Source of the DNA: Streptomyces tateyamensis | Lineage (GTDB): Bacteria; Actinomycetota; Actinomycetes; Streptomycetales; Streptomycetaceae | Length of the DNA stretch: 64,000 nt | Direction of reading: 5' to 3' | NCBI RefSeq assembly: GCF_003205575.1 | Contig: NZ_PYBW01000084.1 | Span: 1 to 64,000 of the forward strand | In this document: one piece after another, positions 1 through 15,835 of the stretch | How positions within the stretch are numbered: the first letter of the stretch is position 1 | Layout of the letters: every line of letters starts with the position of its first letter | Notes under the pieces: generated by a model | Told to the model about the DNA's origin: nothing | What the model saw: only the letters and a program-made list of their open reading frames with translations | The model's database searches: none | Program-made: the position numbers and the translations under genes

Positions 1-228
1 TCAACTGTGGAACGCAGGGCAAGTCGCCGAACTGAAAGCGCGATTGCTTACCTAATGCAACAGCATGTCAAGAGGGCTTCGCCCCGATCGGCCCGGAGGG
101 CCGTGCGAGCATCCATGCGGGTGAACCCGCGCGGCATCCGGGTGGGTCGGGCAATCCGAGGGCGTGTATTCCCCGAAAGTTGCGTGGGCAGGCCCGTGAC
201 AGGGCGGGCGCTGAAGGAGAGATGGGGC

Positions 229-1029
229 GTGATGGCGCAAGAGCGTATCGACACCCGGTTGTTGGAAGAGCTGACCGCGCAGTCGCAGGACTTGAACAGC
301 GACGCGCTGCGGATCACGCGTGACGCGCTGACCGACTACTCGCAGAAGGCGGAGCCGCGCACCTTGCGCTGGTGGCAGCGGGGCGGGGTGCTGGCCGGGG
401 TCGCCGGTGCGGCGGCCCTGCTTGGCACCTCGCGCGCCATGGCGGCCTCTCCGTCCGCGTCGGCGGACGACATCATGGCGCTGCAGACCGCCGCGTCGAT
501 CGAGAACCTGGCGATCGCCGTGTACCAGGCCGCCGCCGGGCTGCCGTTCATCAAGGACGGCAACAAGACGGTTGCGGCGTTCATTGCCAAGACCACCACG
601 CAGCACCAGGCCCACGCACAGGCCTTCAACTCCGCCGCCACCGCGGCCGGCGGCCAGGCGCAGAACAATCCCGACCCGAAGTACAAGGCTGTCGTCGACC
701 AGACCCTGCCGACCGTCAAGACCCCAGCCGACGTGGTCAAGCTCGCCATCACCCTGGAAGACGTCGCCGCCCAGACGTACACCAAGAACGTCGGGCAGGT
801 CAGCAACGCCGACCTGCGCAAGCTGTTCGCCTCCGTCGCACCCGTTGAGGCCCAGCACCGCGCCACCCTGCTCGCGGTCCAGGCCCTGCTCGCGGGCAAC
901 GCCGCGGACCTGATCACCATCCCGGTGGACCCGGCGAAGCTGCCCGCCGCCGCCGGCAGTGTTGGCTTCCCCGATGCGTTCTACCCGACCACCAACGCCT
1001 CGCCGACCAGTGAAGGAGCCGTGAAGTGA
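229..1029 (+). CDS. Exported ferritin-like domain protein
   Basis: About 266 residues; the ferritin-like four-helix class (DUF4439-like) common in actinobacteria. A cytosolic stretch of about 50 residues precedes a hydrophobic segment (about 52-66) and an AMA-AS type signal cleavage site, so the bundle should act outside the membrane. Likely metal ligands are visible: Glu in SIENLAIAVY, the histidines of HQAHA, Glu in LEDVAAQTY, and EAQH near residue 207. The GTG start is preferred because AGGAG lies 9 bases upstream; ATG at 232 is possible. The stop overlaps the next start (GTGA), implying translational coupling with a second protein of the same fold. The substrate is unknown; metal binding is inferred from the residue pattern. 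Confidence 0.8.
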   Translation: MMAQERIDTRLLEELTAQSQDLNSDALRITRDALTDYSQKAEPRTLRWWQRGGVLAGVAGAAALLGTSRAMAASPSASADDIMALQTAASIENLAIAVYQAAAGLPFIKDGNKTVAAFIAKTTTQHQAHAQAFNSAATAAGGQAQNNPDPKYKAVVDQTLPTVKTPADVVKLAITLEDVAAQTYTKNVGQVSNADLRKLFASVAPVEAQHRATLLAVQALLAGNAADLITIPVDPAKLPAAAGSVGFPDAFYPTTNASPTSEGAVK

Positions 1030-1850
1030 CCACTGCACAGGGCGGCTGGGAGCTGCCGATCAGCGAGCGTGAACTGAGCCGCCTCACCGGCGACATGGAC
1101 GAGGCCCACCATGAGACGCTGCCCGAGATGCGGGCGAGCGCCGCCGACCTCGCCGAGGAGATCCGGGCGCGGCGCTCGGTCGAGGCTGTGGACAACGGCC
1201 GTCGGCGCTTCCTGCTCGGAACCGGCGGCGCGGCCGCCGCTCTGGTCCTCGCGGCGTGCTCCAGCAGCAAGACCACCAGCAGCGGCTCCTCCTCACCGTC
1301 GGCTGCGGGCTCGTCCGGCTCGGCCGGCGCGTCGGCTAGCGGGCAGTACACCGGGGACCTGAAGGTCGTCGCGCTCGCCACGGCGCTGGAGAACCAGGCG
1401 GTAGGCGCCTACAAGGCCGCCCTGGACGCGGCGGCGGCCGGCAAGCTCGGCACCGTTCCCCCCGCGGTCGCCACCTTCATCACCACGGCGATGGCCCAGC
1501 ACGCCGATCACGCGAAGGCCTGGAACGCCGTGCTCACCGGCGCCGGCAAGCCGGCGATCACCGACGTCCCACTGTCCAACCAGCCCGACACCCTTGCCGC
1601 CCTCGGCAAGGCCACCAGCGTCGGCGACGTCGCCAAACTGGCCCTGCAACTGGAGGACCAGGCCGCCCAGACCTACCTCTTCGCGACCTACAACGTCACC
1701 AGCCCCGCCGGGATCGCCACCGCCGCCACCATCGCCCCCGTCGAAGCCATGCACGCCGCCGTCCTCAACTACGTCCTGGGCCAGTACCCCGTCCCCGACG
1801 ACTTCCTGCCCGTCGACAAGGCCGCCAGCCCCACCCTCCTCACCGTCTGA
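1026..1850 (+). CDS. Tat-type ferritin-like lipoprotein
   Basis: A 274-residue protein of the same ferritin-like class as the preceding gene. A cytosolic region of about 58 residues is followed by twin arginines (RRRFLLG, 59-65), a hydrophobic run and the lipobox LAAC (Cys78), then a Ser-rich linker. This predicts export, probably by Tat since cofactor may be loaded before export, and lipid anchoring on the outer face of the membrane. Bundle residues match the upstream protein: Glu122, His159, His162, Glu210, Glu240 and His243. It starts inside the stop of the previous gene (GTGA). The function, perhaps iron oxidation, storage or oxygen chemistry, is not known. Confidence 0.8.
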   Translation: MTTAQGGWELPISERELSRLTGDMDEAHHETLPEMRASAADLAEEIRARRSVEAVDNGRRRFLLGTGGAAAALVLAACSSSKTTSSGSSSPSAAGSSGSAGASASGQYTGDLKVVALATALENQAVGAYKAALDAAAAGKLGTVPPAVATFITTAMAQHADHAKAWNAVLTGAGKPAITDVPLSNQPDTLAALGKATSVGDVAKLALQLEDQAAQTYLFATYNVTSPAGIATAATIAPVEAMHAAVLNYVLGQYPVPDDFLPVDKAASPTLLTV

Positions 1851-1865
1851 CCCAACTCGTCCCGA

Positions 1866-1898
1866 GCCCGAGGGAGGACTGACACCCTTCCCTCGGGC
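1866..1898 (+). promoter_or_regulatory. 10-bp-stem hairpin before the cupredoxin gene
   Basis: GCCCGAGGGA and TCCCTCGGGC form a perfect 10-bp stem around a 13-base loop, 15 bases after the second ferritin-like gene and 22 bases before the cupredoxin start. No T-run follows, so it may be an attenuator, a weak terminator or an mRNA-stabilising element that sets the ratio between the two genes. Confidence 0.6.
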
Positions 1899-1919
1899 CC
1901 CGACCCGAAGGACTACCTC

Positions 1920-2351
1920 GTGTCCCCCACCCTCAACCGACCGCGCCCCCGGAGCACCATGGCAGTCGGCGCGGTCTTCGCACTGCTCAGCCTCGCCGGC
2001 TGCTCCAGCAGCGGCGGACCTACTACCGCCGGCACCTCGGCCCCGGGCTCCTCCTCCGCACCGGCCGCCACCGCGAACACCGCCACCGCGTCGACGATCA
2101 CCATCAAGGACTTCGCGTTTACCCCCGCCGACCTCACCGTCGCCCCGGGCACCGTGATCACCGTCGTCAACAAGGACTCCACCGCCCACACCCTGACCGC
2201 TACCGGCAGCAAGGCCTTCGACACCGGGACGCTCGGCGCCGGCAATTCCGCGACGATCACCGCCCCTGCCCAGGACGGCAGTTACCCCTACATCTGCACC
2301 ATCCACCAGTACATGAAAGGCACCCTCACCGTGAAGGCCAGCCGTCCGTGA
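1920..2351 (+). CDS. Cupredoxin (type I copper) lipoprotein
   Basis: A 143-residue predicted lipoprotein: short basic N-terminus, hydrophobic core, lipobox LAGC (Cys28), Ser/Thr/Ala-rich linker to about residue 57, then a plastocyanin-like beta-sandwich. All four type I copper ligands can be placed: His90 in STAHT, then Cys126, His129 and Met132 in the C-x2-H-x2-M loop (CTIHQYM). It should be a one-electron carrier on the outer membrane face. GTG start with GAAGGA about 9 bases upstream. It is third in the operon, between the ferritin-like pair and a membrane protein, which suggests electron exchange among them (inference). Confidence 0.85.
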   Translation: MSPTLNRPRPRSTMAVGAVFALLSLAGCSSSGGPTTAGTSAPGSSSAPAATANTATASTITIKDFAFTPADLTVAPGTVITVVNKDSTAHTLTATGSKAFDTGTLGAGNSATITAPAQDGSYPYICTIHQYMKGTLTVKASRP

Positions 2352-2364
2352 CAGGAGCAGCCGC

Positions 2365-2949
2365 GTGATGCGCCCGGTCGATGTTCCACCCGGACGACGG
2401 CGCAGACCAGTTGCAATCATGCGGCTCGTCCTCGCCGTACTGCTGCCGATCGTGGTCTTTGCGGGTCTGTACGCCTTCGGCGGCAGTCACGAACCCGCTT
2501 ACACCAGCAGTTTGTTCGGCCAGTACGGCGACAATGCCAACGGCCTCAAGGCACGCCTGGGCACGGCACTGCTCGGCCTCGCCCTCGTCCAACTCCTGCT
2601 CGCCCTATGGATGTACCGACGACTGCCCGGCGCCGGCCGCGCCCCCGCACCGGTTCGCACCGTCCACCGCCTCACCGGCCTCGCCGCGTTCCTACTCTCC
2701 CTCCCCATCGCCTACCACTGCATCACCGCCTACGGAGTCCGGCTCAACACCACCCGTACCGCCATCCACTCCATCACCGGGTGTGCCTTCTACGGCACCT
2801 TCACCGCAAAGGTTCTGCTGGTGCGCAGCCGCCGTGCGCCCGGCTGGGCGCTGCCGGTCGCGGGCGGATCGCTGGTCACAGCTGTAGCCCTCCTCTGGTA
2901 CACCTCCGCCCTGTGGTGGCTCAACGGGACCACCGTCCCAGGCCTCTGA
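2365..2949 (+). CDS. Small multi-pass membrane protein, DUF6529-like
   Basis: A 194-residue integral membrane protein with about five hydrophobic segments (near 18-38, 62-82, 102-122, 133-153 and 163-186). His101 (HRLTG), His118 (YHC) and His135 (HSITG) sit at membrane-helix ends exactly 17 residues apart, and HxxTG occurs twice, as in b-type heme membrane proteins. It resembles the DUF6529 family from memory, which I could not check. GTG start, with ATG three bases later; AGGAG is 7 bases upstream. It is the last gene of the operon with the ferritin-like and cupredoxin genes. A membrane electron-transfer role is inference. Confidence 0.7.
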   Translation: MMRPVDVPPGRRRRPVAIMRLVLAVLLPIVVFAGLYAFGGSHEPAYTSSLFGQYGDNANGLKARLGTALLGLALVQLLLALWMYRRLPGAGRAPAPVRTVHRLTGLAAFLLSLPIAYHCITAYGVRLNTTRTAIHSITGCAFYGTFTAKVLLVRSRRAPGWALPVAGGSLVTAVALLWYTSALWWLNGTTVPGL

Positions 2950-3341
2950 CCGCAGCAGAGCAAGGACCGCCGCCGCCTCCAGCGCGACCTTGAAGCCGAG
3001 GCTTCGCCGAGCCCGGGTGTGTCCCGGCTCGGGACACCTGGCGGCTGCGGCCTAACTCGAATAGCGGCTTTGAGTAGTCGCTCAAACACACTCCGTGCTG
3101 TTGTGGTGGTAGGCCCCTGGGCCCACTGGACGTGGCAACGGTCACCACGAAGACCCACGCGCGCCAGCTGCTTCGCGCAGCAGAGCCCGCCAAGCGCGTG
3201 GCACCCATCGCTCCCGCGTCCAGCCACTCCCGCAAGGCCCTGTGCCGCGCGGTACCGGTGCCCACACTGACCGCTCTCACCCAGGGACCGCCCGGCCGGG
3301 CGTGCCGCGGACGGGCGGTCACCGCAACAGAAGGACGGGTC
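2950..3341. other. Intergenic stretch, no supported gene
   Basis: This 392-base gap holds a hairpin at 3007-3031 just after the operon and otherwise only short open frames without recognisable domains. It may be decayed DNA linked to the broken TPR gene that follows. Confidence 0.5.
3007..3031 (+). terminator. Possible terminator of the ferritin-like/cupredoxin operon
   Basis: CCGAGCCCGGG and CCCGGCTCGG pair around TGTGT with one bulged base, 58 bases after the last stop of the operon. There is no clear T-run, as is usual for terminators in high-GC actinobacteria. Confidence 0.5.
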
Positions 3342-4200
3342 ATGCAACTTCCGCGTTCGCCACACCTGTCGGCCATTGGCCGCCGCGCCGAGCGGCCCAT
3401 GGCCGGGCTCGGTGTCCTGGCTCTGCTGGCCGTGTCGGCGCGGGCTCGGCTGCCCGTCCGCCGGGGACCGTGAGTGAAACGAGCGCATCCTCCGACGCGC
3501 TGGCCACCGACATCGCCGGGCTCCAGCAGCACCTGCGGCAGGTGCCCGGTGACGCTCCCGCGCTGGGCACCCTGGGCCTGGACTACGTCCAGCAGGCCAA
3601 GGTCACCGTCGACCCGTCGTACTACCCCAAGGCCGAGGCCGTCCTCACGCAGTCGTTGAAGCTCGACGGCGACGAGAACTTCACCGCGATGGCCGGCATG
3701 CCGCCCTGCAGGCGGCCCGGCACAACTTCGCCTCGGCGCTGGAATGGTCACAGCGGGCCATCGCCGTCAACCCCGACAACGCGACGCTCTACGGGATCCT
3801 CGCCGACGCCTACACCCAGCTCGGCCGCTACCCGGAGTCGTACGACGCGGTGCAGCACATGGTCGACCTGCGCCCCGGCACCCCCTCGCTCGCCCGCGCC
3901 TCCTACGCCTGGGAGCTGCGCGGTGACGTCGCCGCGGCGACCGAGAACATGAAGCGGGCGCTGGACGACGCCAACACCCCGGCCGACCGGGCCTTCACGC
4001 TGTACCACCTGGCCCAACTCGCCCTGGACAGCGGTGACCAGAAGACAGCACTGGCTCATGCCGAGGAAGGACTGCGGGTGATCCCCGGCTCCGCCGAGCT
4101 ACTGGAGGGACGTGCCAAGGCCGAGGCGGCGCTCGGCAACACCGACACCGCACTCGCCGACTACACCAGCGCCCTCGCCAAGGTGCCCCAGCCCGCAAAT
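3342..4200 (+). pseudogene. Broken TPR-repeat exported protein gene
   Basis: Three reading frames together encode a protein clearly related to the intact TPR protein at 9922-11238. Shared stretches include VDPSYYPKAEA against ADPSYYPKADE, KAEAALGNTDTA against RAEAALGNTSSA, and SALAKVPQP against SAIAKVPLP. A start with AAGGA upstream (ATG 3342) opens a signal-like N-terminus. The frame shifts near 3430-3475 and again near 3703, where one base gained or two lost in GGCATGCCGCCCTG breaks it. Homology then ends abruptly near 4192, so roughly the last 150 residues are missing. It looks inactive, unless the shifts are sequencing errors; those could not explain the truncation. Confidence 0.8.
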
Positions 4201-4424
4201 CGCGCGCTCGACCCAGCACGCCGCAACAGGCACGCGCGAGACCCGGGATCGCGGGCAGGTTGGGGAGACCGGGCGGGCGTGCCGCCCGCAGCGGGCCGTG
4301 CGCCCGCCTGGTGGCTGCGGTCCGCCGGCCCGCCGTGCGCTTCGACATGATCTCCAAGCACGGCGCGGCGTTCGGATCCTTCGCGAGGCTCGGCACGGGT
4401 TCACCCGGGACGGGGCCGCGCAGG

Positions 4425-13764: not shown

Positions 13765-14215
13765 CGGCGTGACAGCCTTTCAGATGGACAGCACGGCTCG
13801 CGGTCGGCTCTCGCACGGCGGCTGATCGAGAAACTCGACGGGTGGAGGTGGACCGGGCATCGATGCCCGGTCCACCTCCACCCGTCGAGCAGTGCTGGGA
13901 GTACCGCCGCGGTTGCCGATCCCGGCCTTCCGCTGGTCTCCGAAGCAGATCCGCTCGCTGTGCGGCGGGGGCGTTCCCCGCGCAGGGTGAAGACGTCTCG
14001 AAGTATGTGAGGGTGAAGTTCCCCCGGGCTCTGGCGCGGGTCCTCCGGGAGGCCCGCGATGCCGCCGGCCTGCGCATCGGTCGAGGCGCTCACCGCCCGC
14101 CCACGCGCAACCCGACCGGCGGGGTTGCCCTCTTACGGACCAGCCGTCAATCCCGCTTCGCAACCGGATCAGTGACTTTTCGATCGCCACCCATCCGGCC
14201 CGGGGACTGCTCCGA
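13765..14215. other. Intergenic stretch with a giant palindrome
   Basis: A 451-base gap containing the 56-bp perfect palindrome at 13834-13889. Downstream, a frame from about 13990 encodes a helical, basic stretch (KFPRALARVLREARDAAGL) that resembles a decayed regulator but has no start or complete domain. Confidence 0.45.
13834..13889. repeat. 56-bp perfect palindrome
   Basis: The 28-base arm from CTCGACGGGTGG to GGGCATC is followed with no spacer by its exact reverse complement. As RNA it gives a very long stem with a minimal loop; as DNA it could extrude a cruciform. It begins 69 bases after the small secreted protein gene, so a terminator role is possible, but it is much longer than usual terminators. 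Confidence 0.9.
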
Positions 14216-15835
14216 ATGGGCGTTGTGACCAACAGTGGAACGCCTGCCGAGGAACCCGCCTCCGTGCACCATCCCCGCCCGGCGCTGCGTGCGGCGGGCG
14301 CCGCGATGATCGGGTTTGCCGCCGCCGCGGCAGCGGTCGGCGCGGGTGAACTGGTCGCGGCGTTCACGGGACCCGAGAGCGCACCGGTGATCGCGGTCGG
14401 CTCGGCCGCGATCGACCTGACGCCCACTGCGCTGAAGGACTACGCCGTCCGCACCTTCGGCACCAACGACAAGCCGGTGCTGCTCGCCGGGATCTATCTG
14501 ACGATGGCGGCTCTCGCCGCCCTCGCCGGCCTGCTCGCGGCCCGACGCCCCCCGCTGGGAGGCGCGGTCTTCGCGCTCTTCGGCGGTCTGGGCATCTGGG
14601 CGGCCCTATCCCGCTCGACGTCGATGCCAACCGACGCCGTGCCATCCATCGCGGCCGGCCTGGCAGGCGCGGCGGCTGTGGTCTGGCTCGCCCGCCTGTT
14701 CCGGCAAGCCAGCGTCCGACCCGGCGTCCAGCCCCCTGTGAAGGGCCCCACGTCATCGTCCAACCCGGACCGGCGAACGGTGCTACTGGCCACCGGCGGC
14801 ACGGTCGCCGTGGCAGCGGTCGCGGGGGTGGGCGGCCGCATGCTCGCGGACAGCCGCAACGACATCACCGCCGCCCGCAACGCGGTCCACCTCCCCGCGC
14901 CTGCGCTTCGCGCCCGGCCGGTCCCACTTGCGGCGCGCCCGGCCATCCCCGGCCTGCCCTCCTTCTACACCCCCAACGCGGAGTTCTACCGGGTCGACAC
15001 CGCCCTCACGCTGCCCAGGATCGACCCGCGCAGCTGGTCGCTGCGGGTGCACGGCCTGGTCGACCGACCACTGCTCATCAGCTTCGACGAACTGCTGCGC
15101 CGACCGCTTGAGGAGCTGGACCACACCCTGTCGTGCGTGTCCAACGAGGTCGGCGGACCCTACGTCGGCACCTCGCGGTGGCTGGGAGCCTCGCTGCCCG
15201 CCCTGCTGCGCGAAGCCGGAGTCCGCTCCGGGGCACAGCAGTTGGTCGGCCGCTCCAAGGACGGCATGACCATCGGCGCCCCGATGGACGCCGTACTCGA
15301 CGGGCGGCAGGCACTCCTGGCGGTGGCCATGAACGGCGAGACCCTGCCCGTGGCGCACGGCTTCCCGTGCCGCACGGTGGTCCCCGGACTCTACGGCTAC
15401 ACGTCAGCCACTAAATGGCTGGTCGACCTGGAGGTCACCACCTTCGCCGCCCACGACCCCTACTGGGTCAAGCGCGGCTGGGATCGTACCGGGGTGGTGA
15501 AGACCACCTCTCGCATCGACGTCCCTGCGCCGTTCGCCCACGTCGCCGCCGGAGACGTCAGCGTCGCCGGCACGGCCTGGGCCACCCACCGCGGTATCGC
15601 GGCGGTGGAGGTCCGGGTGGACGGCGGACCATGGGCCCAGGCCCGCCTGGCAGCCGACGCGGGCACGGACCTGTGGCGGCAGTGGAGTTACGACTGGACG
15701 GGTGCCCAACCCGGAACGCACCGGATCGAGGTCCGCGCCACCGACGCCACCGGCGCCGTCCAGACCGAAGCCCGAGCAACTCCGTTCCCCTCCGGTTCGA
15801 CGGGCTGGCACAGCACCGTCGTGATCGTCACCTGA
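14216..15835 (+). CDS. Membrane-anchored sulfite-oxidase-type molybdopterin oxidoreductase
   Basis: A 539-residue protein. About five hydrophobic segments fill residues 25-205, the last one after RRTV. Then comes an oxidoreductase molybdopterin-binding domain (about 235-425) with the motif LSCVSNEVGG, where Cys307 is the expected Mo ligand, and GYTSATKWLVDLEV. A C-terminal Mo-co dimerisation Ig-like domain (about 440-539) completes the sulfite-oxidase fold. The catalytic part should lie outside the membrane. Substrate is unknown. ATG 14216 or GTG 14225 could be the start; neither has a clear ribosome site. A fasciclin lipoprotein gene follows 84 bases later, probably in one operon. Confidence 0.87.
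   Translation: MGVVTNSGTPAEEPASVHHPRPALRAAGAAMIGFAAAAAAVGAGELVAAFTGPESAPVIAVGSAAIDLTPTALKDYAVRTFGTNDKPVLLAGIYLTMAALAALAGLLAARRPPLGGAVFALFGGLGIWAALSRSTSMPTDAVPSIAAGLAGAAAVVWLARLFRQASVRPGVQPPVKGPTSSSNPDRRTVLLATGGTVAVAAVAGVGGRMLADSRNDITAARNAVHLPAPALRARPVPLAARPAIPGLPSFYTPNAEFYRVDTALTLPRIDPRSWSLRVHGLVDRPLLISFDELLRRPLEELDHTLSCVSNEVGGPYVGTSRWLGASLPALLREAGVRSGAQQLVGRSKDGMTIGAPMDAVLDGRQALLAVAMNGETLPVAHGFPCRTVVPGLYGYTSATKWLVDLEVTTFAAHDPYWVKRGWDRTGVVKTTSRIDVPAPFAHVAAGDVSVAGTAWATHRGIAAVEVRVDGGPWAQARLAADAGTDLWRQWSYDWTGAQPGTHRIEVRATDATGAVQTEARATPFPSGSTGWHSTVVIVT

Follow-up and report, generated by a model that had tools for sequence, protein, structure and literature searches.

The window analysed here is a stretch of 64,000 nucleotides from Streptomyces tateyamensis (NZ_PYBW01000084.1, positions 1 to 64,000, forward strand). 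Close to its start lie four genes encoding two ferritin-like proteins of the Ferritin_2 family (F1 and F2), a cupredoxin (CUP) and a membrane protein of the family DUF6529. The unit that recurs in other genomes is F1-F2, with or without CUP, and not a conserved four-gene system. This unit is probably an extracytoplasmic pair of ferritin-like proteins that handles metal or peroxide under the control of the sigma factor SigK and its anti-sigma factor RskA, with CUP as an electron carrier. A preliminary description of this DNA had correctly placed the four genes on one strand with close spacing and one 4-base overlap, that of F1 and F2 (the gap from CUP to DUF6529 is 13 bp), and had taken them for one system.

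The distribution of the four genes has been followed in 57 loci containing F2, namely 40 regions from the family, hand-picked from the matches to F1 and F2 and forming with the window a family set of 41 loci, 15 regions belonging to further families within the class, the window itself and one plasmid locus. The 15 class regions came from 13 genomes; G568 was left out, its pieces being on different contigs. The diverged pairs L170, L176 and L177 and a decayed copy without F1 (L178) have been retained. F1 stands beside F2 in 56 of the loci, the exception being L178, and a cupredoxin follows F2 in 29 (21/41 family loci, 7/15 loci of other families, and the plasmid locus). The window is the sole carrier of DUF6529 among the 57, the gene being absent from the other 56 loci examined. 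In the list of DNA matches from 70 genus genomes, only the window has one extending from F1 to DUF6529; in the other genomes the listed match ends with CUP or with F2, and DUF6529 is matched in separate places. When the draws of 200 family genomes made for DUF6529 and for F1 are taken as one identical set, DUF6529 is present in 77 genomes, an F1 match (fragments included) in 52 and both in 17, against 20 expected, which is the chance level. The CUP of the window scores 74 to 144 bits against 20 other ferritin-linked cupredoxins, whereas the best DUF6529-linked one reaches 67 bits. From the distribution of the loci and the relationship of CUP, a junction is therefore placed between CUP and DUF6529. 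The four genes are accordingly rejected as one system; the expected recurrence of their order holds for the F1-F2 pair and, in the loci mentioned, for CUP, and fails for DUF6529.

No further neighbour is conserved within about 6 kb of F1-F2 in more than 9 of the 41 family loci, in a count of the 45 top clusters, displayed if present in at least 5 loci and excluding F1, F2, CUP and frames overlapping these or the stretch just after F2. No relative of F2 has been found in viral contigs. Short scattered pieces of F1-F2-CUP have also been observed (G328:C1:477879-478080, G338:C1:7971142-7971379, G229:C28:83085-83440 and G360:C2:8330296-8330544), which are apparently relics of lost copies. A plasmid of Streptomycetaceae NBC_01309 carries an annotated run of DUF4331, class F sortase, tetratricopeptide repeat (TPR) and nickel transporter genes near its own F1-F2-CUP.

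Both ferritin-like proteins pass the Ferritin_2 profile (PF13668, cut-off 24.7 bits), F1 with 59.9 bits and F2 with 70 bits, and they share an identity of 34%. Both are putatively exported, in agreement with the preliminary description: F1 has an export-like hydrophobic segment, and the N-terminal part of F2 has an RRRFL sequence resembling a twin-arginine translocation (Tat) signal and a lipobox with Cys78. The export signals of F1, F2 and CUP, the latter with a lipobox Cys28, were judged by eye from the sequence, without a signal-peptide program. Residues E92, Y99, H126, H129, E177, E207 and H210 of F1 are invariant in 40/40 family sequences and in 17/17 of the class set, and the equivalent ligands of F2 in 40-41 of 41 and in 17/17. 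The class set comprises the 15 class loci, the plasmid and the window, the last being present in both alignments. Conservation of the ligand residues, asked for in the preliminary description, is thus borne out across the aligned relatives, in which the two genes form a fixed pair.

The site pattern of F1 and F2, E/Y/HxxH/E/ExxH, is a variant of the bacterioferritin set. The canonical ferroxidase ligands of ferritins and bacterioferritins are E, ExxH, E and ExxH distributed over four helices, and this set is not found in F1 and F2, in which His takes the place of the bridging Glu on helix 2; this HxxH is present in 40/40 F1 and 41/41 F2 sequences and in 17/17 of each in the wider set. A model of mature F2 (predicted local distance difference test, pLDDT, 72; alignment of two sequences) distributes the ligands one set per helix, with helix 1 carrying E and Y, helix 2 HxxH, helix 3 E and helix 4 ExxH. 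This model resembles ferritin folds, with a best Foldseek match of 1.3e-4 (Rv2844) and, by VIA, Z up to 17.4 at a root-mean-square deviation of 2.7 over 143 aligned positions; a sequence search of the PDB with F1 gave a best E of 0.2. The fold predicted in the preliminary description is thus supported by the model in the case of F2, and the fold searches for DUF6529 are indecisive. In the literature listings searched (titles and abstract starts) no account of an F1-F2 pair was found, and the literature searched held nothing combining ferritin-like, cupredoxin, Streptomyces, operon and copper.

A promoter motif, [C/G]CAATCCG-N15-CGAA, has been identified through a k-mer count upstream of F1, and lies about 50 bp before the F1 start in most loci. 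The regions preceding F1 attain a score of 11 or 12 of 12 in 29/41 family loci as against 1/199 control segments, in 9 of the 14 scorable class loci as against 0/157 control segments, and in the plasmid locus; L313, where F1 starts at the contig edge, could not be scored. A search of the own genome with spacers N14-16 revealed exactly three exact matches and none of the reversed pattern. One is that of the window before F1, another lies 59 bp before sigK, which is followed by an RskA-type anti-sigma gene (contig C24), and the third is 146 bp before a gene of FAD (flavin adenine dinucleotide) amine-oxidase type. The 70 genus genomes have 288 matches, compared to 18 for the reversed pattern. Among the 30 genus loci listed, 14 have the 15-bp spacer, of which 4 precede sigK, 3 an Oxidored_molyb-type gene (two confirmed by Pfam) and 1 an oxidase like that of L246. 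In two genomes, proteins with no Pfam match follow directly after an exact motif (L267:1566-3026 and L272:1536-2837), and these are possible further SigK targets.

The SigK encoded in contig C24 scores 286 bits against the NCBIfam cut-off of 226, and its partner, with an RskA_C domain, 209.5 against 100. The same genome encodes a second F1-F2-CUP (L142, G000:C27), divergent from another sigK-rskA with 372 bp between the matches; its SigK (292.1 bits) and anti-sigma protein (184.8 bits) are above the NCBIfam cut-offs, and the intergenic region contains GCAAGCCG-N15-CGAA toward F1 and GCAATCTG-N15-CGAA toward sigK, each with one mismatch. Altogether a sigK-like gene is present in 9/57 and an rskA-like gene in 7/57 of the F2 loci. 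Eight of the 9 loci with a sigK-like gene encode a protein above the SigK cut-off, the exception being L151 at 215.3 bits. In L142, L152, L156, L181, L302 and L312 no more than about 2 kb separates this protein's gene from F1 or F2; in L144 and L167 the distance is about 6 kb, though L144 has a nearer one of 221.2 bits. In L302 and L312, which belong to another family, sigK-rskA is divergent from F1-F2 and the motif occurs on both intergenic strands. The marks of a SigK-RskA regulon, a motif shared with sigK in the same genome and a sigK-rskA neighbourhood, are thus present, and the sequences support a putative regulation of F1-F2 by SigK-RskA. Neither the promoter motif nor the sigK-rskA neighbours figured in the preliminary description.

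CUP has the His, Cys, His and Met ligands and the profile match of a type 1 copper cupredoxin, and its designation as a putative copper lipoprotein is upheld. The ligands H90, C126, H129 and M132 are kept in 20-21 of 21 sequences. The strong hairpin that separates F2 from CUP speaks against a simple operon. A hairpin of score at least 10 follows F2 in 30/41 loci, whether CUP is present or not, compared to 80 of 426 control genes of the same loci called by a crude gene caller; its sequence varies among the loci and the stem is retained. Such a hairpin may reduce the expression of CUP relative to F1-F2.

According to the account favoured here, an envelope signal would cause the membrane anti-sigma factor RskA to release SigK, which would then drive F1-F2 from the promoter at 151-177; we infer this dependence on SigK in the cell. 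F1 and F2 would probably be produced in similar amounts, because their genes overlap, and exported, and they may assemble extracytoplasmically into a mixed complex, F2 being anchored by lipid. Each would carry a four-helix di-metal site of Glu, HxxH, Glu and ExxH with an invariant Tyr nearby. They would probably act at the cell surface on a redox metal, iron or copper, or on peroxide, by oxidation, retention or detoxification. The co-encoded cupredoxin would be an optional one-electron carrier, perhaps made in a smaller amount because the hairpin precedes it. DUF6529, perhaps a haem-b membrane protein, would have been added at the end of the unit in this strain, where it may link CUP with the membrane pool. 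A more specific proposal is offered tentatively and is open to considerable doubt: the pair would represent a new class of two-subunit cell-surface ferritins with a di-metal site of three His and three Glu, working as an envelope metal oxidase or peroxidase that passes electrons to a dedicated cupredoxin, and constituting a main output of SigK-RskA outside the mycobacteria.

A number of points weigh against control of the pair by SigK-RskA and against its assignment to metal or peroxide handling. The F2 loci were selected by their matches to F1 and F2. The replacement of the bridging Glu by His means that ferroxidase chemistry is not to be assumed, and CUP is absent from 28/57 loci. The motif is lacking or poor in 12/41 family and 5/14 class loci, including the diverged L170, L176 and L177, and, of the recognised genes, none follows the motif in 6 of the 14 genus loci having the 15-bp spacer. 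As the motif was derived from the regions upstream of F1, the F1 scores are partly produced by construction, so that independent testing comes from the sigK neighbours and from the search across whole genomes. The name SigK-type has been given because the motif precedes sigK in the own genome; the boxes generally attributed to SigK promoters are CCATCC and CGAA. No sigK is present in the fetched stretch of 48/57 F2 loci. The finding of no sigK-like or rskA-like gene in 79 DUF6529 control loci counts in favour of the link, but these loci are shorter, with 552 kb in the 79 (two of them copies of the window, and many being short stretches) compared to 971 kb in the 56 F2 loci that were fetched.

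The idea from which the analysis started, of one dedicated electron-transfer chain in which F1 and F2 oxidise metal, CUP carries the electrons and DUF6529 passes them into the membrane, is now considered very unlikely, although a metal-oxidation or electron-transfer role as such is still a candidate function. The chain would agree with the common strand, the tight spacing and the extracytoplasmic or membrane location of all four products, and two further points in its favour concern DUF6529, namely two invariant histidines and the redox carriers beside it in some loci. DUF6529 scores 215.3 bits against a cut-off of 23.3 for PF20139, and its histidines H101, H118 and H135 are each exactly 17 residues apart, the regular spacing described earlier; H101 and H135 are invariant in 31/31 aligned sequences and H118 is Gln in 3 (the window included). 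DUF6529 lies by cupredoxins in L008, L013, L021, L022, L060, L063, L066 and L081, and in L010 a CxxCH cytochrome c comes directly after it. Against the chain stand its rarity beside F2, its chance-level co-occurrence with F1, the grouping of the window CUP with ferritin-linked and not DUF6529-linked cupredoxins, and the lack of a motif of score 11 or more upstream of DUF6529 in the 79 loci, the window itself accounting for two of them. In three of the loci, L013, L021 and L022 from distant Actinomycetota, DUF6529 has a single cupredoxin on one side and a three-domain cupredoxin protein on the other, an arrangement that is possibly a membrane electron-transfer unit in its own right. The other neighbours of DUF6529 elsewhere include Lipoprotein_15 secreted repeats, PAP2/haloperoxidase-like proteins, a metallophosphoesterase with cupredoxin and an unnamed secreted protein, X25. 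Five helices are predicted in a model of pLDDT 78. The score with Cytochrom_B561 (PF03188) is 17.3 bits (E 0.006), below the cut-off of 23 bits; Foldseek with the model found nothing at E 0.001 or better, the b561 structure 4o6y being listed at E 2.0, and most VIA rows were helical bundles of a general kind, the list also containing cytochrome b6 (2e74) and designed haem proteins. A PDB sequence search with DUF6529 gave no match up to E 10, and no mention of the family was found in the literature searched. It is a reasonable guess, no more, that DUF6529 is a membrane partner of secreted redox carriers.

The remaining alternatives concern the chemistry of F1 and F2. They could be extracytoplasmic metallo-phosphatases like the tardigrade protein RvFeMP-1 and DRB0118 of Deinococcus (Ferritin_2), which share their Pfam family; the Foldseek matches of the F2 model include RvY_06210 (8wai; E 0.012, TMq 0.62, 21% identity). 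Phosphatase activity has been reported, and the ligands of RvFeMP-1 are E51, E90xxH93, E132xxD135 and D162 (PMC11616004). A comparison of motifs, made without superposition, did not find this set of E, ExxH, ExxD and D in F1 and F2, which have HxxH, no ExxD at the Glu of the third helix and ExxH on helix 4, and are nearer to bacterioferritin. Since the ligands differ, the phosphatase reading becomes less likely and is held to be improbable. F1 and F2 could also sequester copper or iron without catalysis, CUP being a separate copper lipoprotein. The three His per site, the cupredoxin neighbour, the hairpin before CUP and the loci lacking CUP are compatible with such a role, and the copper-binding CopM is among the Foldseek matches of the F2 model (5ffc, E 0.017). 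The conserved Glu/His/Tyr pattern over four helices, which resembles what is generally known of di-metal catalytic sites, argues against sequestration, and we regard it as unlikely.

The features of the window are collected in the table. The site at 14190 lies upstream of a molybdoenzyme-type gene. A scan of the window allowing up to 2 mismatches gave 8 matches against 8.1 expected, which is chance, and the support for this site therefore comes from the exact motif 8 nucleotides before the two confirmed Oxidored_molyb genes elsewhere. An apparently split TPR gene, broken into frames, is also seen at 3242-4350.

Table. Coordinates of the features identified in the window
Feature	Position	Strand	Evidence or remark
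GGGTGAAC half-site upstream of promoter	119..126	+	
SigK-type promoter motif GCAATCCG-N15-CGAA	151..177	+	ends 51 bp before F1
F1, putatively exported Ferritin_2 protein	229..1029	+	PF13668 3.9e-16
F2, putative Tat-type ferritin-like lipoprotein	1026..1850	+	PF13668 3e-19
Strong hairpin between F2 and CUP, attenuator- or terminator-like	1866..1898	+	no T run
CUP, putative type 1 copper lipoprotein	1920..2351	+	PF13473 (Cupredoxin_1) 2.6e-14
DUF6529 membrane protein (fourth gene)	2365..2949	+	PF20139 5.6e-64; local addition outside the recurring unit
Second SigK-type motif CCCATCCG-N15-CGAA	14190..14216	+	1 mismatch; 8 bases before the gene at 14225
Oxidored_molyb + Big_7 oxidoreductase, possibly co-regulated	14225..15835	+	PF00174 4.3e-39; 11 kb from the ferritin pair

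The half-site upstream of the promoter corresponds to a palindrome, TTCACYC-N4-GRGTGAA, which is complete in some relatives and at the second F1-F2-CUP of the own genome (G000:C27:22716-22733). In L150, L149, L153, L156, L163 and others a palindrome near GTTCACYC-N4-GRGTGAAC is located upstream of the -35-like box of F1. The palindrome occurs in 45/70 genus genomes and its reversed control in none. It was considered as a shared operator and rejected: only 5 of 30 genus sites have a promoter motif of at least 11 (of 14), and 3 of these are F1 loci. A PhoP box was also considered and was not supported.

The best known outputs of SigK-RskA, MPB70 and MPB83, are antigens, and the system is present in many bacteria. 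SigK-RskA is reportedly redox-sensitive (work by Shukla in 2014). Exported metalloproteins and an extracytoplasmic molybdoenzyme behind one motif would be a chemical hint that the stress is one of metal or redox and is extracytoplasmic. SigK-RskA gains a new, testable set of likely targets in soil actinobacteria. If the two-subunit cell-surface ferritin proposal is true, SigK-RskA would be an envelope redox or metal stress system. Two further results are a ferritin-like pair whose conserved ligand set is unusual and an indication that DUF6529 may serve secreted redox carriers as their membrane partner.

Compared with known systems, F1 and F2 share with the bacterioferritin-type di-iron site the succession E ... 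xxH ... E ... ExxH over four helices, and differ in helix 2, where the canonical bridging Glu is His in every aligned F1 and F2. They resemble the Ferritin_2 / PCC13-62 / RvFeMP family (PF13668) in membership and fold, and differ from it as a putatively exported gene pair in which helix 2 carries HxxH, not ExxH, and helix 4 ExxH. The DUF6529 (PF20139) loci examined elsewhere contain no F1 or F2, and in some nothing is recognised nearby. The nearest regulatory counterparts are the SigK-RskA regulon and the mpt83-sigK-rskA cassette (mycobacteria, Yersinia). The published accounts describe the cassette and the conservation of SigK sites among Actinobacteria (PMC7509140), report a small SigK regulon in M. 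bovis (PMC10540498) and term the stimuli of SigK-RskA obscure (PMC9861118); the word ferritin does not occur in the text of PMC7509140 as searched, and no ferritin is named in the passages of these papers that were consulted. The loci described here are like these systems in having, in several cases, sigK-rskA adjoining exported targets, a common motif and the same regulator families. They differ in the targets, which in the published accounts are MPT70/MPT83 and DipZ (PMC7509140, PMC9861118, PMC10540498), with a fasciclin-domain lipoprotein in the cassette itself, whereas the candidate targets here are a pair of Ferritin_2 proteins together with a cupredoxin.

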